39,771 bases of DNA from positions 1 to 39,771 of IMG/VR virus record IMGVR_UViG_3300035698_009079, one strand, 5' to 3'. The translations under genes and the position numbers were made by a program. A model generated the notes under the pieces. The model searched no databases, was not told the DNA's origin, and saw only the letters and a program-made list of their open reading frames with translations. The DNA is from a virus. Shown here piece by piece: positions 1 through 39,771 of this stretch; within the stretch, counting starts at the first letter, position 1; each line of letters begins with the position of its first letter.

Positions 1-63
1 AAATATAGCCAACTGATCTTCAATTTTATTTGTATATTTCAATATTCTGTTAAATAAAACCAT
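1..63 (-). CDS. N-terminal part of a truncated small gene
   Basis: This is the first 21 codons of a minus-strand gene that runs off the left edge; it begins M-V-L-F-N-R-I-L-K-Y and ends within the window at A-I-F. The ATG at 61-63 has a good ribosome binding site (AAAGGA) five bases upstream, which is why I accept it. It follows the exonuclease gene in the same direction after 84 bases that contain a small hairpin (82-103). If the window is a circular genome opened here, its continuation would be the cysteine-rich C-terminus at 39644-39771. A direct join is out of frame and would need 3n+1 extra bases. No function can be assigned. Confidence 0.55.
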   Translation of the reverse strand, partial: MVLFNRILKYTNKIEDQLAIF

Positions 64-147
64 TACTTATCCTTTGTTATGCACGATAAGAAACCTTATA
101 GTGCTATTAATTACTTATTATACTTCTTTAAATTCTTGGGCCATAAC

Positions 148-1083
148 TTACTCCTCTTTTTTAATAGTTATTTTTCTTGTAACGCTTGGCTTTCCAGTTT
201 TAATATAACTCACAGGTACAGTGTAGTTATTATCAGAAACAAATTTTTTAAAGTCTATAGTAGATCTTCCTTTTACGTCAATGGATTGAATGTGAACATT
301 ATTGCACATTACGTTTTTGTGATTAATGTTTTTAAATATCATTTTTTTAAGCTCATCTCTGTAAGCTGTTTTTTGTTCCAATTCCTTAGAAGCTACTTTA
401 TATTTTTCTACTAAACTTTCCATCATAACGTCTTCACTCATATCAAGTTTATCATCTTTAGTTAATTCAAGCGTAGGTTCATGGTCTTTGTTTTCTTTTA
501 AAGCAATAACTTCATCCCAAAATTTACTCATAGCAGGAATTAATTTATTGAAACAATAATCTTCATCAAATTTAACAGTGGTCATTGCATACTCTAATTT
601 TGATTCATCTTTATCTATGATTTTACATACAACTAAAATGTTTTCTAAAGATCCAGTTACCAACATTTGTTGTTGTAGTTGTGGAAAATATTGTTTTAAA
701 CACTCTCCAGACTTAACTACTTCATAATCACTAGCACCAACATATTTACACTCTAATACAGTTTTTGTTTTTTCATTATAACCATCAAGTGAAGCCATTA
801 AAAAATCAGCACCCTCAGATAGAGCAACAATAGCAGGAAAGTCTAGGCCAGTTTCTAATTCTGCATAAGCTCTCGTCTTCTCTTCTAGCCTATGCCCACG
901 ATCTGTAATAAATGTATTATCATTTCTAACTACAGTATCAGGATAAGCTTTGTTCATTGCTAGAGTAGAAGGTGTACAAAATTTACTTAATCCCATGACT
1001 ATATTAGCGTCTGATGCGCCTAGTCGTGACTGTCTTAATTCAAGCCATTCCTTACTGTTTTGTTCAACGGTAACTTCTTTCAT
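148..1083 (-). CDS. YqaJ-type viral recombinase / exonuclease
   Basis: This is a 311-residue nuclease of the PD-(D/E)XK superfamily, YqaJ/lambda-exonuclease type, which in this family degrades one strand of duplex ends to feed single-strand annealing. The N-terminus carries the family signature W-L-E-L-R-Q-S-R-L-G-A-S-D (about 13-25). Catalytic residues fit D100 in ASLDGYNE and E111-C-K113 in LECKYVG, followed by the glutamine-rich QYFPQLQQQM motif (131-140). The C-terminal third is charged and lysine-rich, unlike the core. It is transcribed divergently from the Sak4-like ATPase and SSB-like genes, its probable partners in recombination. A TTGACA-type promoter lies just upstream. Confidence in the family is high; polarity and substrate are inferred. 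Confidence 0.92.
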   Translation of the reverse strand: MKEVTVEQNSKEWLELRQSRLGASDANIVMGLSKFCTPSTLAMNKAYPDTVVRNDNTFITDRGHRLEEKTRAYAELETGLDFPAIVALSEGADFLMASLDGYNEKTKTVLECKYVGASDYEVVKSGECLKQYFPQLQQQMLVTGSLENILVVCKIIDKDESKLEYAMTTVKFDEDYCFNKLIPAMSKFWDEVIALKENKDHEPTLELTKDDKLDMSEDVMMESLVEKYKVASKELEQKTAYRDELKKMIFKNINHKNVMCNNVHIQSIDVKGRSTIDFKKFVSDNNYTVPVSYIKTGKPSVTRKITIKKEE

Positions 1084-1114
1084 AGTTTTTTTTCCTTTGT
1101 TTATGTTTTTTGTG

Positions 1115-1143
1115 TTGATATATAAATAACAGTAAGCTAAAAA
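1115..1143 (+). promoter_or_regulatory. Candidate sigma70-type promoter for the recombination operon
   Basis: TTGATA (1115-1120) and TAAAAA (1138-1143) are separated by 17 bases, upstream of the plus-strand operon that starts at 1176. It overlaps a divergent promoter on the other strand, so the two operons could be switched by one regulator; the HTH protein at 1331-1492 is a candidate. This is a match by eye only. Confidence 0.5.
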
Positions 1144-1151
1144 GATGTCAA
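1123..1151 (-). promoter_or_regulatory. Candidate divergent promoter for the exonuclease gene
   Basis: On the minus strand a perfect TTGACA (1146-1151) is followed after 17 bases by TATTTA (1123-1128), a weak -10. A leader of about 35 bases leads to the exonuclease ATG at 1083. The arrangement is face-to-face with the plus-strand promoter. Confidence 0.5.
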
Positions 1152-1175
1152 CAAAAAAAACAAAGGATAAAAAAA

Positions 1176-1334
1176 ATGAAAGAAATGCTTGAAAAGAGAA
1201 TTTTTGATCTTGAAAACATATTAAAAAATTCTAGCAAAAAAGAAACTATAGAGATACTAATAGATTTAAACAAGTCTATTTTTTTAAAAAGATACGGTTA
1301 TGAATATATATCAAAAAAGGAGGTATTACATTGA
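1176..1334 (+). CDS. Small charged helical protein, unknown function
   Basis: This 52-residue open frame (starting M-K-E-M-L-E-K-R, ending K-K-E-V-L-H) begins at an ATG with AAAGGA nine bases upstream. It looks almost entirely helical and charged, with no recognisable domain. Its last codons contain the AGGAGG ribosome binding site for the next gene, and its stop TGA (1332-1334) overlaps that gene's TTG start, so the two are translationally coupled. It opens the plus-strand recombination operon, a usual place for small regulatory or accessory proteins, but no function can be claimed. Confidence 0.65.
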   Translation: MKEMLEKRIFDLENILKNSSKKETIEILIDLNKSIFLKRYGYEYISKKEVLH

Positions 1335-1492
1335 AGTCTTATTTGAACAAATTAAAGAAGATGATTAAGCAGCACGACAAAGTTTATGTTGCTTACAAGC
1401 TAGGAGTGATTGACACAAGAACTATTGAGCGTTGGATAGAAAGAGAAATGATTCCATCTAAATATTTAGATAGAATAAAGGGGATGAAATAG
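1331..1492 (+). CDS. Small Cro/YdaS-like helix-turn-helix protein (TTG start)
   Basis: This 53-residue protein has a helix-turn-helix-like core, V-A-Y-K-L-G-V-I-D-T-R-T-I-E-R-W, followed by I-P-S-K-Y-L-D-R-I. That resembles small Cro/YdaS-type DNA-binding proteins, in which the recognition helix is followed by 'IPAKY'. The TTG start at 1331 is preferred because AGGAGG lies seven bases upstream and the first internal ATG would remove the N-terminal helix. The gene abuts the ATPase gene (TAG then ATG). Its position just inside an operon with overlapping divergent promoters suggests a transcription regulator, possibly autoregulatory. That role is inferred. Confidence 0.6.
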   Translation: MKSYLNKLKKMIKQHDKVYVAYKLGVIDTRTIERWIEREMIPSKYLDRIKGMK

Positions 1493-2425
1493 ATGAAAGT
1501 AACTAAAGGGAAAGTTTTAAAACCATTGAACATTATGGTTTACGGTGAACATGGATTAGGAAAAACTACATTGGCCAGTGAAACTGCAAAGCCAATTTAT
1601 ATTGGTAGTGAAGAAAATGATGAAATTGATTCTGACCGTCTACCAAGAATTGAAAGTTGGAAAATGTTAACGGATCAATTAGAGTGGATACTAATGAATA
1701 AAGATGCAAAATCTTATAAAACTTTAGTCATTGATACGCTAGACGGTTTACAAGAAATTGCTCAGAAGGACATACTAAAAGATCAAGGTGGAAAAAGTAT
1801 GGCCACTGCATTTGGTGGATACGGTAAAGCCTATGAAAAAATGTACACTATGTTCCATGAAATAAGAGAAAACTATCTTAAACCATTAAGAGATAGCAAT
1901 GGCATGAGCATCGTTATTTTAGGCCATTCTGAAAAGAGTAAACATGAAGACCCTATCACCAATACTAGTTATGACCATTACAGCACGACTCTCCACCGTA
2001 AAGTTAAGCCACTTTTTGAAGACTGGGTATCTGCCATTTTATTTATTACTTATAAAGTTTATAGCGTAGAAAATAACGATGGAAAAGAACATGCAGTAGG
2101 AGATGGATCTAGAGTTATTTTAACAGAGCAAAGACCGTCCCACGTTGCAAAAAATCGTTTTGAATTGGATTTTGAAATTGATTTTAATAAAACTGGCACA
2201 TGGAAAGTTATTACGGATCAAGTTAAAAAGCACTATGGAAAAGCACCTGCGTATAAAGGCCAGGCCACAGGCGAACAATCTCAGATATTAAAATCAATAA
2301 ATGAATTACTCCCTAAACTTGACGATGATATGAAAAAAAGAATTACCGTATCTTTGAAACGTGCAGGAAATAATGAAGCAGAATTAAACCGTATCTATGG
2401 AAAAATAGAAAAACTAACAAATTAA
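1493..2425 (+). CDS. Sak4-like RecA-fold ATPase (phage single-strand annealing/recombination)
   Basis: This is a 310-residue NTPase of the AAA_24/Sak4 type, phage proteins with a RecA core that act with SSB in homologous recombination. Walker A is GEHGLGKT (18-25) and Walker B is TLVID (77-81). The L-G-H-S-E-K segment near 143 matches the family's sensor strand. After the core is a linker and a helical C-terminal segment from about residue 260. The ATG directly follows the stop of the HTH gene. The neighbouring exonuclease (divergent) and SSB-like gene (downstream) make a recombination module. Family assignment is firm; ATP-dependent annealing is known for characterised Sak4 proteins and inferred here. 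Confidence 0.85.
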   Translation: MKVTKGKVLKPLNIMVYGEHGLGKTTLASETAKPIYIGSEENDEIDSDRLPRIESWKMLTDQLEWILMNKDAKSYKTLVIDTLDGLQEIAQKDILKDQGGKSMATAFGGYGKAYEKMYTMFHEIRENYLKPLRDSNGMSIVILGHSEKSKHEDPITNTSYDHYSTTLHRKVKPLFEDWVSAILFITYKVYSVENNDGKEHAVGDGSRVILTEQRPSHVAKNRFELDFEIDFNKTGTWKVITDQVKKHYGKAPAYKGQATGEQSQILKSINELLPKLDDDMKKRITVSLKRAGNNEAELNRIYGKIEKLTN

Positions 2426-2434
2426 AGGAAAACG

Positions 2435-2614
2435 ATGGAAGAAAAAAAAGAGAAAAGCGATAAAGAAGTTTTGATGGAAGTGTTAAATTCATTAGTTGAT
2501 GCTATAAACGGACTTCAAAAATTCTCTACCGATACCCAAGAATGTTTAAAACATATAAATGATAGATTAAAATTATTAGAAAAAAAAGAAACTAAACACG
2601 CATTTTCTTTATAA
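2435..2614 (+). CDS. Small acidic coiled-coil-like protein
   Basis: This 59-residue frame begins M-E-E-K-K-E-K-S-D and ends K-H-A-F-S-L. AAAGGA lies upstream of the ATG, and it fills the gap between the Sak4-like and SSB-like genes exactly, with ribosome binding sites at both borders. Leucine/isoleucine spacing (V-L-M-E-V-L-N-S-L, then I-N-D-R-L-K-L-L-E) suggests a coiled coil. No family was recognised. Its place suggests an accessory factor of the recombination module, which is inference only. Confidence 0.6.
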   Translation: MEEKKEKSDKEVLMEVLNSLVDAINGLQKFSTDTQECLKHINDRLKLLEKKETKHAFSL

Positions 2615-2625
2615 GGAGAAAAATT

Positions 2626-3156
2626 ATGAAAGTTGGAACGCACAAAAATGTTAGTATTGTAGGATTTTTAGTAGGAGAGTCAAAAGAAAAGAAAACACCT
2701 TATTACGAGATTGAATTTGAAAATAAAGAAGGGGATTCAATTTATTCTCAACATTATTATTCTGATAAAGAATTTACGAAAGGTAACACTACCTCCACTA
2801 TGAAAAAAGAGAATCAAAGACTTTTGATTGATATGGGATTTAAAGGAAAGTCTGAATCTGAAATGGCCGACGAAACTAAAACCGTTTCTGATTTATTTGA
2901 CCTAGTAGAAGGTGGAATTTCTTTAATTGTTGAAGCTGAAAGTTTCACTAATGACAAGGGAGAAACTGTAGTTTCTAATAAAGTAAAATATGTAAATGCC
3001 GGAGGTGGTCGTGCTAAACTTGATAAGTCTTCAGCAGTAAAAACTTTCTCAGGATTTGCAGGATCTTTACAGCAAGCACGACAATCAAGCAAAGTTGTAA
3101 TAGCAAAAGCACCAGTTGAAAGTTCAGAAGTGAGTGCAGATGACATACCGTTCTAA
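2626..3156 (+). CDS. Single-stranded DNA-binding protein with SSB-type acidic tail
   Basis: This 176-residue protein has a beta-rich N-terminal half, consistent with an OB-type fold. After a variable linker it ends in S-A-D-D-I-P-F, nearly identical to the DDIPF tip by which bacterial SSB recruits helicases, nucleases and recombination proteins. A strong AAGGAG site precedes the ATG at 2626. I did not recognise the core by a signature motif, so the call rests on the tail, the length and the context between the Sak4-like ATPase and two DNA enzymes. The next gene starts inside its last codons. Confidence 0.75.
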   Translation: MKVGTHKNVSIVGFLVGESKEKKTPYYEIEFENKEGDSIYSQHYYSDKEFTKGNTTSTMKKENQRLLIDMGFKGKSESEMADETKTVSDLFDLVEGGISLIVEAESFTNDKGETVVSNKVKYVNAGGGRAKLDKSSAVKTFSGFAGSLQQARQSSKVVIAKAPVESSEVSADDIPF

Positions 3157-3790
3157 TCTAACATTTTTTGATTTTGAAACAACAGACAAAAATCCTAGTG
3201 GGAATGAAATTCTCACTGGGTATTTTGTTACTCTTACTCAAGACGGTGAGCTTCTCGATAATTTATATGTCGAAATGAAGCCACTGAAATGGATAGAAGA
3301 AAGTTTTCCTATTCATGGTCTAAGTGAAAGACGGTGTGAAAGTTTTCCAGAGAGAATTATTGGCCTTAAAAAAATGATAGCGTATATGAAAAAACATAAG
3401 GATAGTATTTTTTGCTGTCACGCAAATCATTTAGTTTTTGGTGTGTACGGTTATTTTGATTGGCAATGCGTAGTGAATGAAATGTTCATGTATTCAGATA
3501 GTATGTACTATTGGTTTGGAGCAACTTTTGCAGAAACTAGGGTAATATCCACTCATACTATTGCTAAAAAATTACTTGGATTAAATAAGAATAAATTAAG
3601 CGATATAGCCACTTACTATGGTGTAAAATTCAAACACCATGACTGTAAAGAAGATACGCTGACCACAATGCACATTTATTTTGAGATGATTAAAAATCTT
3701 GGGATCTTAACAGACGATGAAATCTTTGATTTAGGGAATTACAATGGTGAAAAAATTTGGAGAAACGGTGGTGAATTTACCCTCGCTTAG
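3140..3790 (+). CDS. DnaQ-like 3'-5' exonuclease (DEDD superfamily)
   Basis: This 216-residue protein has the exonuclease motifs in order. Exo I is FFDFETTD (D11, E13) and is followed by F-P-I-H-G-L-S (about 56-62), typical of DnaQ proteins. A degenerate Exo II lies around Y-F-D-W (D107), and Exo III is H-H-D-C-K-E-D (H167, D172). The ATG at 3140 is preferred to an in-frame GTG at 3134; either start overlaps the SSB-like gene, indicating coupled translation. There is no polymerase in the window, so it may act in recombination or host DNA turnover rather than proofreading. The Exo II region is atypical. Confidence 0.8.
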   Translation: MTYRSNLTFFDFETTDKNPSGNEILTGYFVTLTQDGELLDNLYVEMKPLKWIEESFPIHGLSERRCESFPERIIGLKKMIAYMKKHKDSIFCCHANHLVFGVYGYFDWQCVVNEMFMYSDSMYYWFGATFAETRVISTHTIAKKLLGLNKNKLSDIATYYGVKFKHHDCKEDTLTTMHIYFEMIKNLGILTDDEIFDLGNYNGEKIWRNGGEFTLA

Positions 3791-5294
3791 AGACTATCAA
3801 GAAAAAGCAATAAACTTAACTCGTAAAGCATTTATAGATGGCCATAGAAGAATTATGATATTCTTGGCCACTGGTGGTGGAAAATCAATAATATTTCTTC
3901 ACTTAATAAACTCTCTACTGGGAAACAATAAAAAAGTTTTATTCATAGTAAAACGTAGACAATTAGTTTTCCAGGCCAAGGAACATTTTGACCGAGTTGG
4001 GATTGAATCTTCTGTTTTGATAGCAAACGATAAGCGTTATAGGCCCGACTTTAAATTTCAAATTTGCTCTGTAGATACTATAGCGAGAAGGGAAATTGAT
4101 TTTAGTAGTTATGATTTTTTTATTTTAGATGAGGCCCACGATGCCACCTCCAAAACTTATTCAGAGCTACTAGAATCATATCCTGATAAATACTTTATAG
4201 GACTTACAGCAACACCTTTTGCCGTTGGTAAAAAAGCTCATACTTTCTGGGATGCCTGTGTAAAGCCTATCGAAATGGAAGATCTAAAAGAGAGAGGATT
4301 TTTAGTACCTTGTGCTTTATACGTTCCGCATAAATTAAATTTAGAAAATATAAAAGTTGATGCAAAATCGAACGATTATCAGACTAAATCACTCAGCAAT
4401 GAAATGAGTAAACTGGAAATTGTTGGTGATATAATAAACGACTATATTGAAATCGGAAAAATGAAACCTGCACTATGTTTTTGTGTCGATAAAAATCACT
4501 CGATTAAAATGGCCCAAGAGTTTAATGAAGCAGGGATACCTGCCCTTCACTGTGATGAATCAACTAAACAAGTTGATCGTGATAACGCTATAAAAATGCT
4601 GAAAGATGGACGCATAAAAGTTCTATGTAATATTAATATTTTTTCCACTGGAGTAGACATACCTCAAGCTGAAGTTGGTATCATGGCCCGCCCTACAAGA
4701 TCCGAAATTTTATGGATACAACAAGTAGGCCGACTATTCAGACCATATAGAAAATGCGGAAAATGCCATAAGCAGTATGACAACTCTCCTGCGTGTCCAC
4801 ATTGCGGATACGATAAACCTTCCTACATCAAGACTACTGCAGTTATAATCGATTCTGGAGACAATCAATCACGACTGGGCCACCCTTATGACGAACGGTA
4901 TCCTATAATGAATGAAGAAGATAAGAAGGCCAGGAAAGAAAAAGAAAAGCCAATTTCTAAGACTTGTAAATTTTGCTATGCAGTATATCCAGTAACCGTA
5001 AAAAGTTGCCCCTATTGCAATAAAGAGATGGATTTACCAGAAAATTTATACGAGACTATAGACGGTAAAATCGTTCCTTATGATGAATTTACAGAGCTTG
5101 ATAAATATTTTAAAGATTTACAAAGATCCGAAATTCATAAGAACTTCAAGCCTAATAGAAAATATTTTGAAATGTATAAAAAATATGGTGATAAGTGCAT
5201 GAAGTATCAGAAAGAATTTGATATACCGTCATGGATACCAAAAATATATAAAAAACAGCAAAAAGAAAAACTGGAAGGAAAGTTATACCAATGA
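3744..5294 (+). CDS. Superfamily 2 DEAH-box DNA helicase with two C-terminal zinc ribbons
   Basis: This 516-residue protein has the SF2 motifs: L-R-D-Y-Q near residue 15, Walker A ATGGGKS (42-48), DEAH (129-132), T-A-T (155-157), the motif V region F-S-T-G-V-D and motif VI QQVGRLFRP (326-334). Two four-cysteine ribbons follow: C338/C341/C351/C354 and C408/C411/C422/C425. Such proteins resemble the RecG/UvsW/type III restriction helicase group used in branch migration or origin unwinding. The start is ambiguous: ATG 3744 overlaps the exonuclease gene by 47 bases, whereas GTG 3768 or 3771 has GGAG just upstream and begins next to the LRDYQ motif. Confidence 0.88.
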   Translation: MVKKFGETVVNLPSLRDYQEKAINLTRKAFIDGHRRIMIFLATGGGKSIIFLHLINSLLGNNKKVLFIVKRRQLVFQAKEHFDRVGIESSVLIANDKRYRPDFKFQICSVDTIARREIDFSSYDFFILDEAHDATSKTYSELLESYPDKYFIGLTATPFAVGKKAHTFWDACVKPIEMEDLKERGFLVPCALYVPHKLNLENIKVDAKSNDYQTKSLSNEMSKLEIVGDIINDYIEIGKMKPALCFCVDKNHSIKMAQEFNEAGIPALHCDESTKQVDRDNAIKMLKDGRIKVLCNINIFSTGVDIPQAEVGIMARPTRSEILWIQQVGRLFRPYRKCGKCHKQYDNSPACPHCGYDKPSYIKTTAVIIDSGDNQSRLGHPYDERYPIMNEEDKKARKEKEKPISKTCKFCYAVYPVTVKSCPYCNKEMDLPENLYETIDGKIVPYDEFTELDKYFKDLQRSEIHKNFKPNRKYFEMYKKYGDKCMKYQKEFDIPSWIPKIYKKQQKEKLEGKLYQ

Positions 5295-5833
5295 AAAATT
5301 TACTGATACTTATGGCCTTTATTTGCCTTGTCGCTTGCGCTTCTGCCCCCAGGCCTTCAAAACCACAAATTGCCCCTATAGAACCATCAATCTCAAAAGA
5401 GTTTTATACGGTATCGACTAAAAAAGAATTTGCTGTTGATTCTGCAAAAATTGCCAATTGTGTTACGGCCTTACCTCAATATCATTCAAAAATTTTAGCT
5501 GAAGAATATTATTCTCATTTTACAGGTAAAAATTCTGAAATTGTCGAATCTCTGTTGAGTGATAAAAAAGCAATAATAAAAACATATTTCAAAAGATTTA
5601 CTAAGGCCAAGGCATACCGTATCCCAGGCCAGTCCGAAATTTACATCAACATGGCAAAAATAAGCCCTAACACAGAAAGCATAATTGTAACTCTCATACA
5701 TGAAAGACTTCACGTTTTGGGATATTCTCACAGGGGAAATAACAGAAATAAATACAATAATATTAATTCTGTGCCATATAAAGCGTCTATGCTATCTAAA
5801 GGTTTTCTTTCCTACTGCGTAGACAATCAATAA
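5291..5833 (+). CDS. Lipoprotein with metzincin-type zinc protease motif
   Basis: This 180-residue protein starts with a lysine, a hydrophobic signal and the lipobox L-V-A-C (Cys16), so lipidation and export are expected. The C-terminal half carries H-E-R-L-H-V-L-G-Y-S-H (137-147), a full HExxHxxGxxH zinc site with glutamate E138 as general base; a methionine (M167) lies downstream where a Met-turn could be. It overlaps the helicase stop by four bases (ATGA) and closes an otherwise cytoplasmic DNA-enzyme operon, which is odd. Early expression of a membrane-anchored protease would suit envelope remodelling or superinfection exclusion. Both ideas are inference. Targets are unknown. Confidence 0.75.
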   Translation: MKNLLILMAFICLVACASAPRPSKPQIAPIEPSISKEFYTVSTKKEFAVDSAKIANCVTALPQYHSKILAEEYYSHFTGKNSEIVESLLSDKKAIIKTYFKRFTKAKAYRIPGQSEIYINMAKISPNTESIIVTLIHERLHVLGYSHRGNNRNKYNNINSVPYKASMLSKGFLSYCVDNQ

Positions 5834-5966
5834 TTTTTTTCAACATAGTTGCTTGTTTAGAATTACCTGATTTTTTTGCCTCTTCATAGCTGATACTTAG
5901 TCGCCCGATGGACGATTCTTTTTCGTGTTTTGGATCTTCTTTTTCTCGCTTGCCTTTTTTAGACAT
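5796..5966 (-). CDS. Small lysine-rich protein at the end of the late operon
   Basis: This is a 56-residue frame, beginning M-S-K-K-G-K-R-E-K-E and ending R-S-R-K-E-N-L. Its ATG overlaps the stop of the endolysin gene (ATGTCTAA), so it could be translated by coupling; there is no clear independent ribosome binding site. Its 3' end overlaps the end of the plus-strand lipoprotein gene tail-to-tail. It is highly charged and helical with no recognised domain. It may be a genuine last gene of the late operon, but the weak initiation signal leaves doubt. Confidence 0.4.
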   Translation of the reverse strand: MSKKGKREKEDPKHEKESSIGRLSISYEEAKKSGNSKQATMLKKIIDCLRSRKENL

Positions 5967-6360
5967 GGTGAATTTTCATATTTAACCTGTTGTCACAATG
6001 AATAAAAGTCTCATATCTCAAAACAAACTCGTAATGATCCCTAGCAACGTCCTCTAGGAAGTCAAGATCACCGTCCGAAGGAACTAAATCCAAACCGTCA
6101 CCCAAAGCATGATTAGATCTTGGAACTCCACCAATGGCCTTATTGTGTTGATTACACCTATAGCCCGAAGTGATATAGATAGGACTACCGTAGTCAAGTC
6201 TAGTCATTTTAAACGAATCATAATTGTCAGCGGTGAATAGAGTGTGTGTGCAAGTGGCCCTGTCACATTTACAGTCAATTTCACTTTGAGTCAGAAGTAC
6301 TTTTCCATCCTCTGACTTCACAATTACTTCATTAGCACCTTTAATGTATTTTTGGATCAT
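5959..6360 (-). CDS. Peptidase M15-type endolysin
   Basis: This 133-residue protein matches the M15 (D-Ala-D-Ala carboxypeptidase / L-Ala-D-Glu endopeptidase-like) fold used by many phage endolysins to cut peptidoglycan peptides. The zinc-site motifs are S-G-Y-R-C-N-Q-H-N-K followed by S-N-H-A-L-G-D-G-L-D (H84, D91) and F-I-H-C-D (H121, D123). It has no signal peptide or cell-wall-binding domain, so it should need a holin or similar for release. A cysteine cluster (C30, C32, C37) precedes the catalytic part. It lies at the distal end of the late operon beside a lipoprotein gene, as expected for a lysis cassette. Confidence 0.88.
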   Translation of the reverse strand: MIQKYIKGANEVIVKSEDGKVLLTQSEIDCKCDRATCTHTLFTADNYDSFKMTRLDYGSPIYITSGYRCNQHNKAIGGVPRSNHALGDGLDLVPSDGDLDFLEDVARDHYEFVLRYETFIHCDNRLNMKIHHV

Positions 6361-6380
6361 TTTTTTCCTGTGACATTAAA

Positions 6381-7082: not shown

Positions 7083-7115
7083 AAAACCCTCCAAGGCTAT
7101 TGTTTAAAATTATAA

Positions 7116-32093: not shown

Positions 32094-32101
32094 GTTTATA
32101 A

Positions 32102-32675: not shown

Positions 32676-32684
32676 AGGATAATT

Positions 32685-33031: not shown

Positions 33032-33067
33032 TAATAACTATATTAACAAAAATAAAGGAGTTAAAAA

Positions 33068-33271: not shown

Positions 33272-33444
33272 AAGAAATAATTAATAAGGATAATAAAAAA
33301 GTTACCATAGAAAATTTAGGCAGTTTTATAAATATAAATTATGAAAATTATAGTCGAACGATTACATGGGAAAGATTGGAAGATCTTGAAAAGTATTTTA
33401 CTACTTTAGATCATAGAGAAACTATTAACGTAATTTTATCATAA
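33268..33444 (+). CDS. Tiny protein 6
   Basis: This 58-residue frame begins M-K-E-I-I-N-K-D-N-K and ends T-I-N-V-I-L-S. The ATG overlaps the previous stop (ATGA) and an AAGGA lies upstream. Strand-like N-terminal half followed by a helix containing W-E-R-L-E-D-L. No known family. Confidence 0.55.
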   Translation: MKEIINKDNKKVTIENLGSFININYENYSRTITWERLEDLEKYFTTLDHRETINVILS

Positions 33445-33456
33445 GGAAAAATTAAA

Positions 33457-33714
33457 ATGGAAGGATTAGAAAAGAGATTAAAAAAATTAACTAGTAATAA
33501 TAATCATAATGAAAGCTTATTAGAAATTACTAAACATTTTAAATTTTTTGGGCATCAAGAAATTATTGAGTGTATAAAAAAAATTCATGAAATCGAGGGC
33601 CACATGCCTAGAGATTTATATAATTATAGATACCAATTAATGAATGAAATTTTAGAATTAATAGAAAAAAATAACAACAAAGAAACTAGAGAAAGGATTG
33701 TATCATGTTTGTAA
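33457..33714 (+). CDS. Tiny helical protein 7
   Basis: This 85-residue protein begins M-E-G-L-E-K-R-L-K-K and is almost entirely helical (Y-Q-L-M-N-E-I-L-E-L-I-E-K-N). AAGGA lies before the ATG and the stop overlaps the next gene by ten bases. It includes C38-type scattered cysteines but no zinc pattern. Unknown function. Confidence 0.6.
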   Translation: MEGLEKRLKKLTSNNNHNESLLEITKHFKFFGHQEIIECIKKIHEIEGHMPRDLYNYRYQLMNEILELIEKNNNKETRERIVSCL

Positions 33715-33941
33715 TAATGAAAGATAATTTTATGAGTGGATGGGGAAAGGCTAAAGATATTACTAACCTTTACGAAGTTGAATGCGATGATTTGGATCAA
33801 GTAGAAATGATTGAAAGAAACGCAAATAACAGAACGGATATGTCAAATGTAAAATACAAAGTAAAAGAAACTAAAGATTATTACGGAGTTTTAATAACAC
33901 GAGTTCACTTTGATGATCTCGGAGGAGTTTGGAAGAAATGA
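33705..33941 (+). CDS. Tiny alpha/beta protein 8
   Basis: This 78-residue protein begins M-F-V-I-M-K-D-N-F-M-S-G-W-G and ends D-L-G-G-V-W-K-K. An acidic helix (C-D-D-L-D-Q-V-E-M-I-E) sits between strands, a plan seen in several unnamed phage proteins that I cannot place. It overlaps both neighbours, so it is translated by coupling. Confidence 0.6.
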   Translation: MFVIMKDNFMSGWGKAKDITNLYEVECDDLDQVEMIERNANNRTDMSNVKYKVKETKDYYGVLITRVHFDDLGGVWKK

Positions 33942-34102
33942 GAAATTTTACTAAAGCTGAATTACTTGCCTATGTACAATTAGAAATGAGTTATAAAACA
34001 ATTGATAAAATATCTATAAAATCATTGGCCGTAATAGCTGACATTTTGTGCATTGATTTATCTGATACAACTTTTAAGGAAAATAATGAAAAAACCAATT
34101 AA
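33938..34102 (+). CDS. Tiny protein 9
   Basis: This 54-residue frame begins M-R-N-F-T-K-A-E-L-L and ends N-N-E-K-T-N. Its ATG overlaps the previous stop by four bases, and GGAGG-like bases (33921-33925) lie upstream. The middle (I-S-I-K-S-L-A-V-I-A-D-I-L) could be part of a helix-turn-helix, but the match is weak. Confidence 0.5.
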   Translation: MRNFTKAELLAYVQLEMSYKTIDKISIKSLAVIADILCIDLSDTTFKENNEKTN

Positions 34103-34214
34103 TTTACACGTTGAAGAAAAAATGCACCAAACAATAAAAATATATTGTGCTGAAAATAATATCAGTATGACACAATACATTATTAAACTTATCGAAAAGG
34201 ATATAAAAAAATGA
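34086..34214 (+). CDS. Tiny ribbon-helix-helix DNA-binding protein
   Basis: This 42-residue protein matches the Arc/MetJ ribbon-helix-helix plan: a strand (P-I-N-L-H-V), helix A (M-H-Q-T-I-K-I-Y-C-A) and helix B after N-N-I-S-M-T (Q-Y-I-I-K-L-I-E-K). AAGGA lies six bases before the ATG, and it overlaps the preceding and following genes. RHH dimers repress promoters by inserting the strand into the major groove. It may regulate this operon. Confidence 0.65.
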   Translation: MKKPINLHVEEKMHQTIKIYCAENNISMTQYIIKLIEKDIKK

Positions 34215-34444
34215 ATCAATACGAGCAAGTAAAAATGTCATTCTATTTTAAACAATTTACACGCACGGCAGGATCGTTTGAAACGGCCCTCTGGAACTTG
34301 TTTGGCCTGGCCGATAGTGATAATCAAATACTACTCGGAAAGGCCTTCCCAACGCATTTATATGTCTATAATGAGTGGATGACATGGCCAGCAGGAGAGA
34401 GAGACTATTTTAAGGCCTATATAAGGCCAGAATCTTCGATTTAA
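34211..34444 (+). CDS. Protein 11, last gene of the block, unusually GGCC-dense
   Basis: This 77-residue protein begins M-N-Q-Y-E-Q-V-K-M-S-F and contains F-E-T-A-L-W-N-L-F-G-L-A-D-S-D-N and W-M-T-W-P-A-G-E-R-D-Y. It overlaps the RHH gene by four bases (ATGA). It has higher GC and many more GGCC sites (seven in 234 bases) than the AT-rich genes before it, so a different origin or constraint is possible. No known family. A perfect terminator follows within 20 bases. Confidence 0.65.
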   Translation: MNQYEQVKMSFYFKQFTRTAGSFETALWNLFGLADSDNQILLGKAFPTHLYVYNEWMTWPAGERDYFKAYIRPESSI

Positions 34445-34463
34445 GACGTTTTAGAGCAATATT

Positions 34464-34493
34464 AGGCCTATCATATCAGATAGGCCTTTTTTT
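34464..34493 (+). terminator. Rho-independent terminator of the tiny-gene operon
   Basis: AGGCCTATC (34464-34472), a 6-base loop and GATAGGCCT (34479-34487) form a perfect 9-bp stem followed by T7. Each arm contains AGGCCT, so the stem itself includes the GGCC motif. It ends plus-strand transcription. Confidence 0.9.
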
Positions 34494-34519
34494 GGCTTAA
34501 AATGGCCCGCATTGGCCCT

Positions 34520-34568
34520 AAAAAAGGGAGCATTAAGCTATTTAGTGAGTTTTTACTCTAATGCTCCC
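34520..34568 (-). terminator. Rho-independent terminator facing the tiny-gene operon
   Basis: GGGAGCATTA (34526-34535) and TAATGCTCCC (34559-34568) form a perfect 10-bp stem with a smaller inner GAGT/ACTC stem. On the minus strand it is followed by six T. It would end the gene at 34591-34812 and stop transcripts from the right arm from entering the operon from the other side. Confidence 0.85.
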
Positions 34569-34590
34569 CACACGATGCGTTAAAGACATA

Positions 34591-34812
34591 TTATGATAAA
34601 TTATTTCTTACTCTTAAAGCCTCTTCGTGTTCTTCTTGATTACTGCTTTCAATTTGTCCAACAACACTGTTTAGATGGCCTTTCGTTAAAATTATATAAT
34701 CCCATATAATTTTATTTGCTAAAATGTTAAATTCTTCTTGGCCTCCACCGCAAAGAATATTTAAACCAATTAAGTTTTCTTCGCTTACTTTTACTTCATT
34801 AAATTTTTTCAT
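34591..34812 (-). CDS. Unknown 73-residue protein
   Basis: It begins M-K-K-F-N-E-V-K-V-S-E-E-N and ends A-L-R-V-R-N-N-L-S. AAAGGA lies before the ATG. The middle is glycine-rich (I-L-C-G-G-G-Q-E-E-F) then helical. It is flanked on the left by a terminator and on the right by the repeat region. No family was recognised and no promoter was identified with confidence. Confidence 0.6.
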   Translation of the reverse strand: MKKFNEVKVSEENLIGLNILCGGGQEEFNILANKIIWDYIILTKGHLNSVVGQIESSNQEEHEEALRVRNNLS

Positions 34813-35046
34813 AAAATTATCCTTTGTTTTTTGATTCGCTACATTAATAATTTTTTTAACATGATAAGTACAGCAATTTTTGCCTACTAAATTTTGTAGT
34901 CCACCCTATAAAGTGAATTATATTATACACTTACACCGTTTACAACTACACCAACTACACTATGAACTACATTTGACGCATGGCAAAGCCTATAAAATTG
35001 TTGAGCTTTTTGTCTTTTGTAGTTATGTAGTTATTAATTAGAATAA

Positions 35047-35102
35047 TATATATATAAAGAGAGAGAGAGAGACTTTTTTTTTATATATCCTTTTATATAT
35101 CC
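35047..35102. repeat. AT/GA microsatellites and tandem TTTTATATATCC, possible DNA-unwinding element
   Basis: (TA)5 at 35047-35056 is followed by (GA)7 at 35059-35072, a T-run, and two tandem copies of TTTTATATATCC (35079-35090 and 35091-35102). Low-stability sequence placed between two groups of ACTACA/TGTAGT repeats would suit the melting site of an origin. Confidence 0.6.
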
Positions 35103-35138
35103 ATGTCGGAAAAACAGGACTACACGACTACAAAACGT

Positions 35139-35165
35139 CGAAAGCCCTTGTTAGAAGGGCTTTCG
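35139..35165 (-). terminator. 11-bp perfect hairpin after the primase-helicase gene
   Basis: CGAAAGCCCTT (35139-35149) and AAGGGCTTTCG (35155-35165) form a perfect stem with a GTTAG loop. On the minus strand it lies 38 bases after the primase-helicase stop and is followed by ACGTTTTG. The T-tract is weak, so it may be a terminator or part of the candidate origin. Confidence 0.55.
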
Positions 35166-35203
35166 AGCTGTAGGGCAGGACTACAAAGGGTACTACATGT
35201 AGT

Positions 35204-37720
35204 TCATATTTTTATAATTAGACCATTTTGAGGTATTTTTGAATATCCTGCGATGCGTTTACTAACGCTTGATGTTACAAGAAATTCCTTGTCACGTCGC
35301 AGCACTCTGGCATAATCTTCATTACCAGTACCTTTTAATTTTTTCTTAATTTTTTCTGACTCGGAGTGTATAAACATTTCTGTGCTACTTAATATCCTAA
35401 TGCCGTGCGATGCAATCCAAATATTTAGTGGATTATCTTTGTTTTTATACTCTTCATTTTTAGTTAGATGCTCCACGCAAAAGGTTAAAGTTTTCTGTTC
35501 TGAGGCAGAAATTTCCATATTCATTATAAGGTTTCTGCACTCTTTTGAAGCTTCAACCTTTGCTTCATTTATATATGAATTATCTTTAAGATTCAACGTG
35601 TCAATTATAGTATCCACTGTTTCTATGTCTATTTCATCATCGTGTATAAATTCATGTAGACAAGCAACCAAGACAGCCGTTAATTGTGAGGTTCTAGTTA
35701 CTTTGAATAATTTTAATTCCTTGATTCTTTTATATGCAATTTTTTCATTAGCAAGTATTTGAGGGATTCTATTGTAACACCGTGCAAAGAGTCTTGATTT
35801 ATTTTTTCTAAGCCACACGACCATTTCTTCAACTTCTGCAAAGTCAGAATCCTTTTGTCCTGAGTCTTCTTGAGGGACTATATCTACAAAGAAAAATCGG
35901 TTTTTATCCTGAGCTTCTAGTTTAGGTATTTGAACAGATCCAAAGGCAAAAGCTACCATGGCTTTAAATTCAATTCTTTCTTGATTTGCGTTTGTTCTCT
36001 GCTTTGATGCTCCATCTGCATCGGTGGCCTCCCTGGCCATTCTCACTATCTCGTCTATCCCTTTTTTGTCAGGTTCAGATTCATCAAATATATATGGAAC
36101 TGCATTATCTCCGACTATGGGATAAATTGAAGCTGCACTGGCATTTTTAGATCTTTGACAATTGTATATGCATTTCTCTAGTAATTCTTCCTGTACCCAT
36201 GACTTACCTGTAGAAGTTCCTCCAGTAATCCATATATGAAACCGTTTGTTGAATACGGAAACTAAATTAGCTTGAATCATCCAGGCCGCTAAATATCCAG
36301 ATGATTCTCTGTTTGCAAGTGATATTTTTTTTAAATTTTCCCAGATATATCTCATATCTTCAATTTCTAAAGGTTTTTCAATTTTAAAATGAGAATCGTC
36401 GCATTGTACTTCATTATAAAAATTTTCCAGTGAGTTTATAGGTCTGTTGGGATATATGGAGTCGCCGTTATTAAATATATACTCATCTTTGTCTTTCCAT
36501 ATACCGTATCCTTTAATATTCTTTTTATTAAAAAATCCTGCCTTTAAACTCTCCTGAGTGAAATCATTAACAACATCATCCCAAGCTATGCCAGATTGTT
36601 TTTTATTACCTGCATCGTCTTCTTCTATTTTTGCAGGAAAGTTTTTCTCATACCATTTCTTAGGTGCTATTTTGAACATCTTTGCGATAAACTTTAAATC
36701 ATTATCTTTATATTCCATTAGTTGTTTATTATTACTGGAGGTAAAATAATATGATCCTTTTTTGTCTGAGCATCCAAGAAATTTAATATTAAAGAAATCC
36801 TCTTCATTTACGGCCAGCTGAGACTTAACACCATTGAGTGAAACAAAACTATGAACATCATTAAAATCACTCCACTCTGAAGGTGAACTTGCAGGAAATT
36901 CTGCGACTTTATAAATTACATCTTTATAAGCATCGGCACATTTTTTTGCCGCAAACTCTCCGACACGTTTTTTATCGTTATCAGCAGCAATGACTATTTT
37001 ACAATCAGGGTTTACAAAGCGAATAGAATTTATAGCATGAAATAAATTACCAGAATCAAAACCACATATTACAGGTATTTTTGGGAAGGCCTCTTGAATA
37101 GAACATGCTGTTGCATATCCTTCGCATAGATATATAAACTCTGAAGTCCTGTAAGGTTTCAAATGGCAAAAAGATCCTTTTTTCTTAACTCCTGCAGAGA
37201 ATCTTTTTTCAAAGTCACCAGTAGCAGGATCTTTATAAATTTGCTGTACTCCGACTAGTTTTTTATGATCGTACATCGGTATTAATAACGCACCGTTATT
37301 ATTTACCCTGGCCGTATATAAAGTTTTGATATTTTTATATTCTAAGTATTCGTGAGATTTAGATACTGAACTTGAAAATATAGGTTTCCATTTTTCTGCA
37401 CAGGCCTTCCATTTTTTCTGTTTGTCAAGATCCATTTTAGCGTTAAATTCTCTATTTTTTTCGACATAGGCTTTTAAAAAGTTTTTATCTTTAAATTCAC
37501 TTTTATCAAATGAGTGCCATATAAATTGTTCATCACCTATTTTCCAGTTACCGTAAATTATAGTATATTGAACATTCCCTTTATATACTGACTCATTGCA
37601 AGCATACCAAATATCAGTTTGTTTTTCGGGTCTTTGAATCTTACCGTCGGAAATGATATTGTCTAAGCTAGATCCTAATTTAAGGTTGATTTCCTGTGTT
37701 GCGTCCTGTAGTGTTTTCAT
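35204..37720 (-). CDS. Bifunctional primase-helicase (Toprim plus P-loop helicase)
   Basis: This 838-residue protein has an N-terminal region with D5/RepE-like similarity and a Toprim domain (Y-L-C-E-G-Y-A-T-A, E200; I-V-I-A-A-D-N-D, D247/D249). A central linker follows, then a P-loop domain with I-T-G-G-T-S-T-G-K-S (Walker A 500-507) and Y-I-F-D-E-S-E (Walker B 543-549). The primase/helicase order resembles phage proteins that load and prime at a single origin. No zinc-binding motif is apparent at the N-terminus. The candidate origin lies at its 3' end. It is the only primase and replicative helicase candidate in the window. Confidence 0.85.
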   Translation of the reverse strand: MKTLQDATQEINLKLGSSLDNIISDGKIQRPEKQTDIWYACNESVYKGNVQYTIIYGNWKIGDEQFIWHSFDKSEFKDKNFLKAYVEKNREFNAKMDLDKQKKWKACAEKWKPIFSSSVSKSHEYLEYKNIKTLYTARVNNNGALLIPMYDHKKLVGVQQIYKDPATGDFEKRFSAGVKKKGSFCHLKPYRTSEFIYLCEGYATACSIQEAFPKIPVICGFDSGNLFHAINSIRFVNPDCKIVIAADNDKKRVGEFAAKKCADAYKDVIYKVAEFPASSPSEWSDFNDVHSFVSLNGVKSQLAVNEEDFFNIKFLGCSDKKGSYYFTSSNNKQLMEYKDNDLKFIAKMFKIAPKKWYEKNFPAKIEEDDAGNKKQSGIAWDDVVNDFTQESLKAGFFNKKNIKGYGIWKDKDEYIFNNGDSIYPNRPINSLENFYNEVQCDDSHFKIEKPLEIEDMRYIWENLKKISLANRESSGYLAAWMIQANLVSVFNKRFHIWITGGTSTGKSWVQEELLEKCIYNCQRSKNASAASIYPIVGDNAVPYIFDESEPDKKGIDEIVRMAREATDADGASKQRTNANQERIEFKAMVAFAFGSVQIPKLEAQDKNRFFFVDIVPQEDSGQKDSDFAEVEEMVVWLRKNKSRLFARCYNRIPQILANEKIAYKRIKELKLFKVTRTSQLTAVLVACLHEFIHDDEIDIETVDTIIDTLNLKDNSYINEAKVEASKECRNLIMNMEISASEQKTLTFCVEHLTKNEEYKNKDNPLNIWIASHGIRILSSTEMFIHSESEKIKKKLKGTGNEDYARVLRRDKEFLVTSSVSKRIAGYSKIPQNGLIIKI

Positions 37721-37765
37721 AACATATTCCTTTTCATCGGGGTTTAAGTTTCCTTTGGAAGTGGT

Positions 37766-38143
37766 CTAGATAATATCTGGCCACTTTTTTTGTATAATTT
37801 CTAATATATCTGTATCTTCTCTAACTACTATATAAATTCCATTCATAGATTCTATTTGTTCTTGCCAATTTTTTTGAAAAAGTGATTGTTTATCTCGTCC
37901 CACCTTAAACTCAATTTCAATATGTATTAACTCGCTGTCCAATGGCAATAGAAAATAAGCATCGGCCATGCCTTTTTTGTTAATCATCATCGGAGTGTTT
38001 CTGCGAGTATATAAAAGTCCAACATGTCTAGGAAAAAATCTACCTCTAGGAAATTTTTTTTGTAGTAGTAAAGATGTTTTCTGTAATAATTTTTCGTGTT
38101 TAGCACCCACTATAATTTCCCCATATAAACCAAAGTTTTCCAT
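37766..38143 (-). CDS. VRR-NUC domain nuclease
   Basis: This 125-residue protein matches the stand-alone VRR-NUC group: R-R-N-T-P-M-M-I-N-K-K-G-M-A-D (D61), I-E-I-E-F-K-V-G-R-D-K-Q-S (E78, K80) and N-W-Q-E-Q-I-E-S-M-N-G-I-Y. It is a PD-(D/E)XK nuclease likely to cut structured DNA in replication or recombination. It precedes the primase-helicase gene by 45 bases and overlaps a small gene at its start. Confidence 0.85.
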   Translation of the reverse strand: MENFGLYGEIIVGAKHEKLLQKTSLLLQKKFPRGRFFPRHVGLLYTRRNTPMMINKKGMADAYFLLPLDSELIHIEIEFKVGRDKQSLFQKNWQEQIESMNGIYIVVREDTDILEIIQKKWPDII

Positions 38144-38244
38144 ATACTACTTTTAATTAAAGAATAGAATCCCATATCTATATAAGGGTTTACTATTATT
38201 TTATCTTCCTTGGCACAATACCAAACCATTTCATCTGTTTTCAT
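38110..38244 (-). CDS. Small protein upstream of the VRR-NUC gene
   Basis: This 44-residue frame begins M-K-T-D-E-M-V-W-Y-C and ends T-L-V-Y-M-G-K-L. GGAAAG lies four to five bases upstream of the ATG at 38242-38244. It overlaps the VRR-NUC gene by 34 bases. No family recognised; the frame is short, and initiation is the only evidence. Confidence 0.45.
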   Translation of the reverse strand: MKTDEMVWYCAKEDKIIVNPYIDMGFYSLIKSSIWKTLVYMGKL

Positions 38245-38297
38245 ATCTTTCCTTACTCGTTAGTTTGAAACTATTTCTATATACTTTTAGTTTCATT

Positions 38298-38315
38298 CTC
38301 CATTGCCTTGTTAGA
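38298..38315 (-). repeat. Repeat copy C of an 18-base gene-boundary motif
   Basis: The plus-strand sequence here matches the copy at 39653-39670 at 15 of 18 positions and the copy at 38815-38832 at 14. It lies after the methylase stop and before the small gene at 38110-38244. Confidence 0.5.
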
Positions 38316-38323
38316 CTTTATTT

Positions 38324-38809
38324 TTATAAGATTATTAACTTTCCTTTTAATTCAGAATTAATAACGCTTTTAATGTTTTCCTTGCCGTATATAATTAAAC
38401 AACTTGGTGCGTTTGCTGTATTTCCTTGTTTTCCGCAGACGTAATGAAATTTTAATCTACCCTTAAAAAAGAAAATTGCATCCGCTTTATTCCATACCGA
38501 GTTGTGAAATCCTATCGTTTCAGTTCTTGCAAATATTAAAGCTATTCCATTGCCATGTGAGTGTAGCTTGTCTAGCCACTTAAAGGTTTCTCTTCCATAT
38601 GGAGGATTACACCAAACTCGCCCGAACAAATCCCAGTTTTTATCTAAGCCGTTGTCATTAATATTAAATCCCTCGCTAGCATGAAAAAAAGGGGGGTTTA
38701 TCGGCTGACAAGGATCTAAATCAAATACACCTAGAGACTTGACAAGCAAAGGTGGTGTTAACCATTCATCATTGTTTTTAGTGTTACTGTTAAAATTTTT
38801 AATACTCAT
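38324..38809 (-). CDS. Dam-type DNA N6-adenine methyltransferase (phage family)
   Basis: This 161-residue protein matches the phage Dam family (PF05869). It has D-E-W-L-T-P-P (14-20), F-D-L-D-P-C-Q-P (29-36), the catalytic W-C-N-P-P-Y-G (66-72) and G-I-A-L-I-F-A-R-T-E-T. It should transfer a methyl group from SAM to adenine, giving GATC-like or other adenine marks, and could protect DNA or regulate phage genes. The target sequence cannot be read; GGCC has no adenine, so this enzyme does not explain the GGCC excess. Its start overlaps a 14-codon frame (ATGA). Confidence 0.88.
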   Translation of the reverse strand: MSIKNFNSNTKNNDEWLTPPLLVKSLGVFDLDPCQPINPPFFHASEGFNINDNGLDKNWDLFGRVWCNPPYGRETFKWLDKLHSHGNGIALIFARTETIGFHNSVWNKADAIFFFKGRLKFHYVCGKQGNTANAPSCLIIYGKENIKSVINSELKGKLIIL

Positions 38810-38850
38810 TTCTTCTCCAGTGCCTTACTAGGTTTTTTATGTTTTACCAT
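38806..38850 (-). CDS. 14-residue leader-like open frame before the methylase gene
   Basis: The frame reads M-V-K-H-K-K-P-S-K-A-L-E-K-K and its TGA overlaps the methylase ATG. AAGGA lies six bases before its ATG. Its last eight residues echo the C-terminus K-P-S-K-A-M-E-K-E of the truncated gene at 39644-39771. It may be a relic of a duplicated gene end, kept because it contains the GGAG ribosome binding site of the methylase. Confidence 0.35.
   Translation of the reverse strand: MVKHKKPSKALEKK
38815..38832 (-). repeat. Repeat copy B of an 18-base gene-boundary motif
   Basis: The plus-strand sequence CTCCAGTGCCTTACTAGG differs from the copy at 39653-39670 by one base. On the minus strand it carries the GGAG ribosome binding site of the methylase gene and the end of the 14-codon frame. 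Confidence 0.65.
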
Positions 38851-38900
38851 CTTAATTCCTTGTTTTTATTACAATTCACAATAAGACATATTACCGTGCA

Positions 38901-39104
38901 TTAGAGTACATCAACTAACCTACTGTATTGCTCCTTAGTTATAGTTTCGCTGTTTATTAAGCATCTATCTGTATATTGCTCTTCACACTCAAAAACAGAA
39001 GGTTCGTTTATTGGATGTATAGTTGTGACATAACTATAAAAAGATGTGTCGTACGGATGCCTTGTACTTTTTTGTGACATTGTTATTAAATAGTATTCTC
39101 CCAC
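38901..39104 (-). CDS. Unknown 67-residue protein (GTG start)
   Basis: It starts with GTG at 39102-39104, reading M-G-E-Y-Y-L-I-T-M-S, because AAGGAG lies six bases upstream. A competing ATG six bases earlier would lie two bases after that site and give only 24 residues. It ends S-R-L-V-D-V-L. No family was recognised. It follows the hexamer tract gene in the minus-strand operon. Confidence 0.55.
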   Translation of the reverse strand: MGEYYLITMSQKSTRHPYDTSFYSYVTTIHPINEPSVFECEEQYTDRCLINSETITKEQYSRLVDVL

Positions 39105-39114
39105 GCATTTCTCC

Positions 39115-39357
39115 TTAGTTTAGTGTTTTGTTAATAATACCTAGACCCAGACCAAGACCAAGAACCAGACCCAGACCTAGACCCAGACCCAGACCCAGAC
39201 CAAGACCCAGACCAAGACCAAGAACCAGACCTAGACCCAGACCCAGACCAAGAACCAGACCTAGACCAAGACCAAGACCCAGACCAAGACGAAGACCCAG
39301 ACCCAGACCTAGACCCAGACCCAGACCCAGACCAAGACCCAGACCCATCTTTTCCAT
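39115..39357 (-). CDS. Possible Gly-Leu repeat protein translated across the hexamer tract
   Basis: This 80-residue frame starts M-E-K-M and then reads (Gly-Leu)n with a few Val and one Arg, ending G-I-I-N-K-T-L-N. The N-variation of the hexamer falls in the third position of the Leu codon (CTG, CTT or CTA), so it is silent here. The ATG has only a weakly placed AGAGG, and the gene spacing fits the operon. A second minus-strand frame (M-I-R-G-K-R-Y-G-K-D, then S-G-S-W) is also open and starts at 39376. Either, both or neither may be translated. A (GL)n chain would be very hydrophobic. Confidence 0.3.
   Translation of the reverse strand: MEKMGLGLGLGLGLGLGLGLGLRLGLGLGLGLGLVLGLGLGLGLVLGLGLGLGLGLGLGLGLGLVLGLGLGLGIINKTLN
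39140..39343. repeat. 34-unit hexamer tract CCNAGA
   Basis: From 39140 to 39343 the plus strand is an uninterrupted run of 34 hexamers of form CCNAGA. The variable base is C (15), A (10) or T (5), never G. Three units read ACCAGA, each directly after CCAAGA, and one reads CGAAGA. The order T-C-C-C-A-C occurs at units 7-12 and 29-34, suggesting segment duplication. On the minus strand the unit is TCTNGG. It contains no GGCC. Confidence 0.95.
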
Positions 39358-39368
39358 ACCTTTTACCT

Positions 39369-39647
39369 CTAATCATTTTTATTGCTCATTACACCAAAAG
39401 ATTCTATAGCTCCTGTTTGGATAAAAAACTCCTCGCAACCGAGAGATTGTGCGTCTTTAAATCCACTATCTGAAAACTTACCTGTTTCATAAACTAGCTT
39501 AGGATTCTTAATCAATATATTTTGCTCATTAACTCCTATCAACTCCCCATGATAAATATAGTTAAGACAAAAGATTGTCACTTGCTCACCCATTAAACTC
39601 TCAAAGGCTGATTTGTTTGTTTCTACTACTGTTACTAATTTTTTCAT
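39369..39647 (-). CDS. Unknown 92-residue phage protein, possible Sm-like fold
   Basis: It begins M-K-K-L-V-T-V-V-E-T and includes G-E-Q-V-T-I-F-C-L-N-Y-I-Y-H-G-E-L-I-G-V and L-V-Y-E-T-G-K-F, then the C-terminal A-I-E-S-F-G-V-M. I recall similar unnamed proteins in other phages; the V-T-I-F and G-E-L strand pattern resembles Sm-like beta barrels, but this is a guess. GGAG lies before the ATG, which overlaps the preceding stop by four bases. Confidence 0.6.
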   Translation of the reverse strand: MKKLVTVVETNKSAFESLMGEQVTIFCLNYIYHGELIGVNEQNILIKNPKLVYETGKFSDSGFKDAQSLGCEEFFIQTGAIESFGVMSNKND

Positions 39648-39771
39648 TCTTTCTCCATTGCCTTACTAGGCTTTAATTTCTTAGATTTATAGCACTCAAA
39701 ACAATGGCATTTCCAAACACCTTTAACTCTTTGAAGATAGGCTCTACCTTTTTCAAACCAATTTTTACACT
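39644..39771 (-). CDS. C-terminal part of a truncated cysteine-rich protein
   Basis: The frame enters from the right edge and ends K-P-S-K-A-M-E-K-E at TGA 39644-39646, overlapping the next ATG. It carries C-K-N-W-F near its visible start and C-H-C-F-E-C (about 21-26), a likely zinc-binding group. The visible part is basic. It could be the continuation of the gene at 1-63 if the window is circular, but the frames differ by one base. Confidence 0.6.
   Translation of the reverse strand, partial: CKNWFEKGRAYLQRVKGVWKCHCFECYKSKKLKPSKAMEKE
39653..39670 (-). repeat. Repeat copy A of an 18-base gene-boundary motif
   Basis: CTCCATTGCCTTACTAGG forms the end of the truncated cysteine-rich gene and holds the GGAG ribosome binding site of the 92-residue gene. 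It is nearly identical to the copy at 38815-38832. Confidence 0.65.

Follow-up and report, generated by a model that had tools for sequence, protein, structure and literature searches.

A lineage-specific, genome-wide excess of the palindrome GGCC in a phage related to Bdellovibrio phage phi1422

The tetranucleotide GGCC occurs 160 times in the viral DNA analyzed here (IMG/VR record IMGVR_UViG_3300035698_009079; the whole stretch of 39,771 bp is referred to as the window). A genome-wide pressure that acts on DNA, not on protein, favors this exact word and raises its odds approximately 8- to 26-fold at synonymous positions. The pressure acts alike in coding and intergenic DNA; it gives way where amino acids constrain the sequence and, apparently, where the capsid and sheath genes are under other constraints. 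The excess is confined to the species of the window, a sister phage, and two further relatives of low GC content, in which it is weaker. It is tentatively read as a phage-borne counterpart of the highly iterated palindromes (HIPs) of cyanobacteria, possibly driven by modification of GGCC in the host, and is classed as HIP-like, not as a proven HIP.

The excesses of HIP1 in cyanobacteria and of CCGG in Helicobacter have a long-disputed cause, with selection and biased repair as the contenders. A 40-kb phage that carries an excess, set beside relatives without it and relatives that avoid the same word, offers a natural comparison of small size, and whether such a phage genome is modified is directly readable. 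Restriction avoidance alone does not account for phage word usage.

GGCC abundance and null models

The direct count over the whole window matches exactly the figure of about 160 in the original prediction. CCGG (3) and GCGC (6) are each present as the handful that had been claimed, and CGCG occurs twice. Base composition leads one to expect 34 GGCC; the expectation rises to 40 under a dinucleotide model and to 67 under a Markov model of maximal order. The last value gives too mild a picture because the excess itself inflates the sub-words GGC and GCC. Karlin's tetranucleotide index (1.34) understates the effect likewise, since the sub-words in its divisor are inflated in the same manner.

A stricter expectation is obtained by permuting synonymous codons among the 47 ORFs, which preserves each protein and the overall codon usage. 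The ORFs contain 135 GGCC, as compared with 35±5 after shuffling and a maximum of 47 in any shuffle (n=100). In a second set (n=200), GGCC has the largest deviation among all tetramers (z ~22), while CCGG, GCGC, and CGCG are low. The Markov and codon-preserving comparisons had been named beforehand as the tests that could reduce the signal to composition, and both speak against that outcome. Explanations by composition, Markov structure, or codon usage are rejected by the counts and by the two shuffle sets. Abundance far beyond composition across a whole genome is a defining property of HIPs, and GGCC has it here.

Distribution of sites

GGCC is found in all three codon phases, as predicted, but the phases are used unequally: 83 sites are of the NNG/GCC type (18.5 expected), 35 of the GGC/C type (9.3 expected), and 17 of the NGG/CC type (7.9 expected; 200 shuffles). 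Before C, glycine is encoded by GGC in 35 of 100 cases, versus 38 of 619 elsewhere. Intergenic DNA, also named in the prediction, harbors 25 sites in approximately 6 kb, with 5.6 expected from the dinucleotide model or 10.6 from the maximal-order model. The individual sites cited near 1573, 1922, 5352, 32131, and 34465 are all present; the one placed at 32075 exists as well, its true position being 32078.

No position flanking GGCC holds more than 0.05 bit; the unit is thus the tetramer by itself, and an extended motif is rejected. Dipeptides that permit GGCC occur in expected numbers, with none enriched. Thus, the pressure leaves protein sequence unshaped, and selection at the protein level is rejected. 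GGCC density per gene is heterogeneous beyond synonymous opportunity (p 3e-6), with some small genes high, and the sites are mildly clustered, 22 gaps being at most 20 bp long versus 13 expected (Table 1). The capsid gene, rightly described as GGCC-poor, has 1 site versus 5.2 expected from its synonymous opportunities, and the reported absence of the word from about position 38,000 on holds for the final 1.8 kb.

Table 1. Coordinates of GGCC-related features and candidate genes in the window.
Feature	Coordinates	Strand	Description
Span of all GGCC sites	139..37967	none (palindromic)	160 sites; mean spacing 238 bp
Tail sheath-like gene	16330..17460	-	2 GGCC vs 6.9 expected; "sheath" named from gene order
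Major capsid protein gene	22016..23032	-	62% identity to phi1422 major head protein
ParB-like protein	29526..30245	+	phrog_620; 43% identical phi1422 homologue
PAPS-reductase-like protein	30880..31620	-	Pfam PF01507; 55% identical phi1422 homologue
Hypothetical gene	31568..32002	-	Highest GGCC load per opportunity, 7 vs 2.1 expected
Densest cluster	34285..34517		10 GGCC in ~230 bp; end of small-gene region
Terminator-like hairpin	within 34285..34517		Inverted repeat; GGCC in both arms, at 34465 and 34483
GGCC-free end of window	38000..39771		0 GGCC, 6 GGC, 9 GCC; holds methyltransferase gene and hexamer array
Dam-like DNA methyltransferase	38324..38809	-	PF05869, Pfam E 1e-10; phrog_111; orphan methyltransferase model match

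Relatives and lineage specificity

The effect was compared across approximately 150 related loci by means of the ratio P(C given GGC)/P(C given HGC). The ratio is 3.9 in the window, 4.0 and 3.7 in contigs of the same phage (L018 and L059), and 4.1 and 3.3 in fragments of a sister phage (L017 and L078). Weaker ratios of 2.2-2.3 are found in two relatives of low GC content, L061 and L070/L089 (the latter a single contig). For several tail proteins, no relative outside the species is closer than L061; therefore, shared ancestry and a shared host are both possible origins of its weaker excess. All remaining loci, which include low-GC members of the same family, have ratios no higher than 1.7 (median 0.8). 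One of these, L100, is a low-GC locus of the same family and from the same sample that lacks the excess and may have a different host. HIPs are lineage-specific, with relatives lacking the word, and the same pattern is found here.

When the 16 palindromic tetramers are examined in 88 relatives with 10 kb or more of sequence, no value attains that of GGCC in the window. Several relatives avoid GGCC strongly and all but completely, in line with the earlier argument that restriction avoidance would push in the direction opposite to an excess. A general trait of low-GC phages is rejected, as T4, P-SSM2, phiKZ, S-PM2, Flavobacterium phage 11b, and NrS-1 (all with GC below 41%) have ratios of 0-1.06.

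The closest named relative is the Bdellovibrio phage phi1422 (NC_019525), with 58% identity in TerL and 62% in the capsid protein. It has a GC content of 44% and no excess, containing 77 GGCC versus 93-109 expected. phi1422 is a dwarf myovirus of the phiPLPE group (PMC3391216). The window belongs with the phi1422-like dwarf myoviruses by its homologous TerL and capsid proteins, and portal, tube, sheath, and baseplate proteins are common to many of the loci. It is probably a small contractile-tailed phage of a Bdellovibrio-like predatory bacterium. Kinship to this one isolated phage is what points to a host that probably belongs to Bdellovibrionota.

Site turnover and mutational path

The sister phage, recovered from another sample, is 96% identical to the window over 11.8 kb. 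The two share 41 GGCC sites, while 4 are private to the window and 6 to the sister; hence, GGCC sites turn over. The changes involve both transitions and transversions. In a comparison of the sisters for extra conservation of GGCC, 22 of 23 versus 124 of 139 junctions are identical, with too little power for a conclusion.

At the variable position of the word, the A and G classes are reduced and not T alone. Because gains of GGCC are fed not by T alone but also by A and G, a repair bias limited to T-to-C changes is rejected. Among neighboring words, TGCC is high (165 observed versus 115 expected), as it also is in relatives free of the excess, while AGCC and CGCC are not. A pressure that favors the completed word accounts for the data better than any one mutational route does. 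These data do not distinguish selection from a repair process that retains whichever mutation completes the word.

Candidate causes within the phage

Of the phage proteins scanned, only the Dam-like enzyme (Table 1) contains a DNA methyltransferase domain. Five phages with close homologues of it have ratios of 0.45-1.0 and thus no excess, so this enzyme is not supported as the cause. However, methyltransferase families do not fix specificity (PMC4390886), which leaves the enzyme a formal place among the candidates. No homologue of it is found in phi1422.

The PAPS-reductase/ParB cluster is not supported either. phi1422 carries homologues of the PAPS-reductase-like protein, of its two neighbors (41% and 41% identity), and of the ParB-like protein, yet has no excess; the cluster is therefore not a sufficient cause. 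A scan for close relatives of the PAPS gene returned none. Among nine phage proteins scanned, a subset of the ORFs, none matched a model for DndC, DndD, DndE, SspD, or other Ssp proteins. No phage-encoded cause tested is supported, and a host-side cause is left. A genome scan for the host retrieved three contigs from MAGs labelled Bacteroidetes, Leptospiraceae, and Paraglaciecola, all three probably mis-binned, and the plasmid and phage collections yielded no suitable host DNA.

Possible origins of the excess

Selection, a mutational or host-genome signature, and a protein recognition site had all been put forward originally. A signature composed of T-to-C changes only has fallen (p ~2e-7), while a host-linked drive toward the word, or selection, stands.

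In the host-driven reading, which is preferred with reservation, the source of the pressure would be a low-GC bacterium, probably within Bdellovibrionota, that modifies GGCC as m4C or m5C by an orphan or restriction-modification methyltransferase. A process coupled to this modification, such as mismatch resolution biased to the strand whose word can be methylated (the GmeC model that Elhai put forward for HIP sequences, itself unproven), would then keep GGCC-creating mutations whatever the original base. The lack of a flanking consensus is what a 4-bp modification site predicts, and gains from A, G, and T alike fit a process that retains any completed word. Against this reading, a simple word model does not predict the extra deficit of GGCT (p 0.007), and L100 lacks the excess in spite of its shared sample, family, and low GC.

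Direct selection for the number of sites is the main alternative, conceivable but doubtful. GGCC modified by the host, through methylation or phosphorothioation, would be a mark of self on the phage DNA. The more marks, the better the protection against a nuclease of the host or prey would be, and a gain of sites would thus be adaptive. GGCC is a phosphorothioation context in some Dnd systems. Favor for the finished word over one mutational path agrees with such selection. Avoidance of CCGG, GCGC, and CGCG implies that the phage does face selection of the restriction type, and avoidance of GGCC by relatives in other hosts implies that the direction of the pressure depends on the lineage. However, no Dnd or SspD gene is found among the phage proteins scanned, the PAPS-reductase cluster is present in the excess-free phi1422, and the sisters do not conserve GGCC notably better than they do other words, albeit in a comparison of low power. 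That the phage accumulates a restriction-type palindrome because its modified form is protective, with the number of modified GGCC serving as a self mark in a (predatory) host, in an inverse of site avoidance, is a shade more doubtful still.

A role of GGCC as a binding site that acts through its density, for example for a nucleoid protein, a Chi-like recombination signal, or a partition factor of host or phage, is unlikely. The dense, roughly genome-wide spread with mild clustering, including the cluster near the end of the small-gene region, would suit such a role. However, a bare 4-bp palindrome without flank preference is unusual for proteins of this kind, individual sites turn over, and the ParB-like gene has its homologue in the excess-free phi1422.

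Very-short-patch (Vsr-like) repair, in which a T:G mismatch at methylated GGCC turns GGTC or GGCT into GGCC, is improbable. For E. coli, such repair has been proposed to change how often particular oligonucleotides occur (Bhagwat and McClelland 1992, cited in PMC4687349), and GGCT after G is indeed below expectation (13 observed versus 24.7). However, GGCT is low also in relatives without the excess, the synonymous Gly context shows no depletion of GGTC (25 versus 29.5 expected), and a transition-only (T-to-C) model fails at the Ala wobble position (G/GCN, p 1.6e-7) and at GGN/C (p 0.03). As a sole cause, it is largely refuted by this synonymous-position test.

Causes not listed here take up the remainder. 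Composition or codon usage alone, or an assembly artefact, can practically be dismissed: Ala GCC and Gly GGC codons do supply many sites, NNG/GCC accounting for most of those in the ORFs, but the codon shuffles reproduce merely a fraction of them, Ala is encoded by GCC in 82 of 150 cases after G versus 40 of 538 after other bases, and the same excess is present in sister contigs from another metagenome.

Comparison with known systems

phi1422 and the window phage have TerL, the capsid protein, and the PAPS-reductase/ParB cluster in common, and differ in the higher GC content of phi1422, its lack of a GGCC excess, and its lack of the methyltransferase homologue. In the literature searched, no phage is described as having an excess of GGCC. 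The sections of a virus survey considered here (PMC6286503) describe avoidance of orthodox Type II sites and no comparable excess. Such avoidance predicts the near-elimination of CCGG, GCGC, and CGCG observed in the window, while GGCC runs the opposite way.

In Helicobacter, CCGG is over-represented (Kr 1.4-1.5 in a genome of similar GC), an excess that was left unexplained (PMC4687349). As with GGCC in the phage, a 4-bp restriction-type palindrome is in excess without an accepted explanation. However, the word is a different one that the phage avoids, it is carried by a bacterial chromosome, and the effect is milder.

In cyanobacteria, the word in excess is HIP1 or an alternate, and it is accompanied by its cognate methyltransferase (Elhai 2015, PMC4390886); GmeC-directed mismatch repair has been proposed to explain the gain of HIP sites (PMC4390886). 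These systems resemble the phage in having a GC-rich palindrome in genome-wide, lineage-specific excess, with other words in relatives. They differ in that HIPs belong to host chromosomes, are mostly words of 5-8 bp, and have a known cognate methyltransferase, whereas the phage has a 4-bp word that is known from sequence alone.

Synechocystis 6803 shares the word itself. Its GGCC is m4C-modified by M.Ssp6803II and is the most frequent methylation motif, at one per 185 bp, and a GGCC-free stretch has been read as possibly foreign DNA (PMC6604393). Foreign-looking segments without GGCC thus occur there, in a host chromosome whose modification is proven, while the phage enters the comparison through its nucleotide sequence only. 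Because the GC content of Synechocystis is much higher, its GGCC density represents a far milder excess than that of the phage.

Occurrence of GGCC in related phages

Avoidance of GGCC is almost total in five loci related to the window phage (L145, L146, L147, L056, and L063), for which the ratio P(C|GGC)/P(C|HGC), a measure of GGCC excess, is 0.07-0.22. The same phage family therefore meets GGCC-directed restriction elsewhere. Three contigs of this family, L056, L057, and L058, lie inside MAGs labelled Bacteroidetes, Leptospiraceae, and Paraglaciecola, a placement that is probably the result of mis-binning.

Regional and word-level composition

GGCC is locally clustered in the intergenic and small-gene region harboring the terminator-like hairpin. 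Unlike the remainder of the window, the stretch 38000-39771 has a site count of zero; it may be a recent acquisition, the GGCC content of which is still unadjusted. The hexamer array close to the window end has a telomere-like appearance, and frames run through it on both strands, giving Leu-Gly, Arg-Pro, or Ser-Gly repeats. Tandem repeats also occur in the gene of the 23546-24643 protein, where they encode an acidic tail rich in Asp, Glu, Asn, and Lys.

Other palindromes are near-absent from the window (1-39771), i.e., CCGG (n = 3, of which the sites at 31898 and 33210 overlap GGCC), GCGC (n = 6), and CGCG (n = 2). GATATC (~1 site vs. 13 expected) and GCTGG/CCAGC (6 vs. 25) are likewise low. 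CACC/GGTG, CAGG/CCTG, and ACGG/CCGT are moderately enriched across the whole window (z of 4.9-6.3 against shuffles of synonymous codons among ORFs).

Features of the window
Feature	Position	Remark
Tandem repeats	23657-23880	Units of 15-48 bp
ParB-like gene, PAPS-reductase-like gene, two hypothetical genes	29526-32002	
Terminator-like hairpin	within 34000-34760	Arms AGGCCTATC; part of local GGCC cluster
Dam-like methyltransferase gene	within 38000-39771	GGCC-free stretch
Array of ~35 imperfect ACCCAG hexamers	39139-39347	

Relation to phi1422

All four genes of the ParB/PAPS-reductase group have homologues in the Bdellovibrio phage phi1422, with 41-55% identity.
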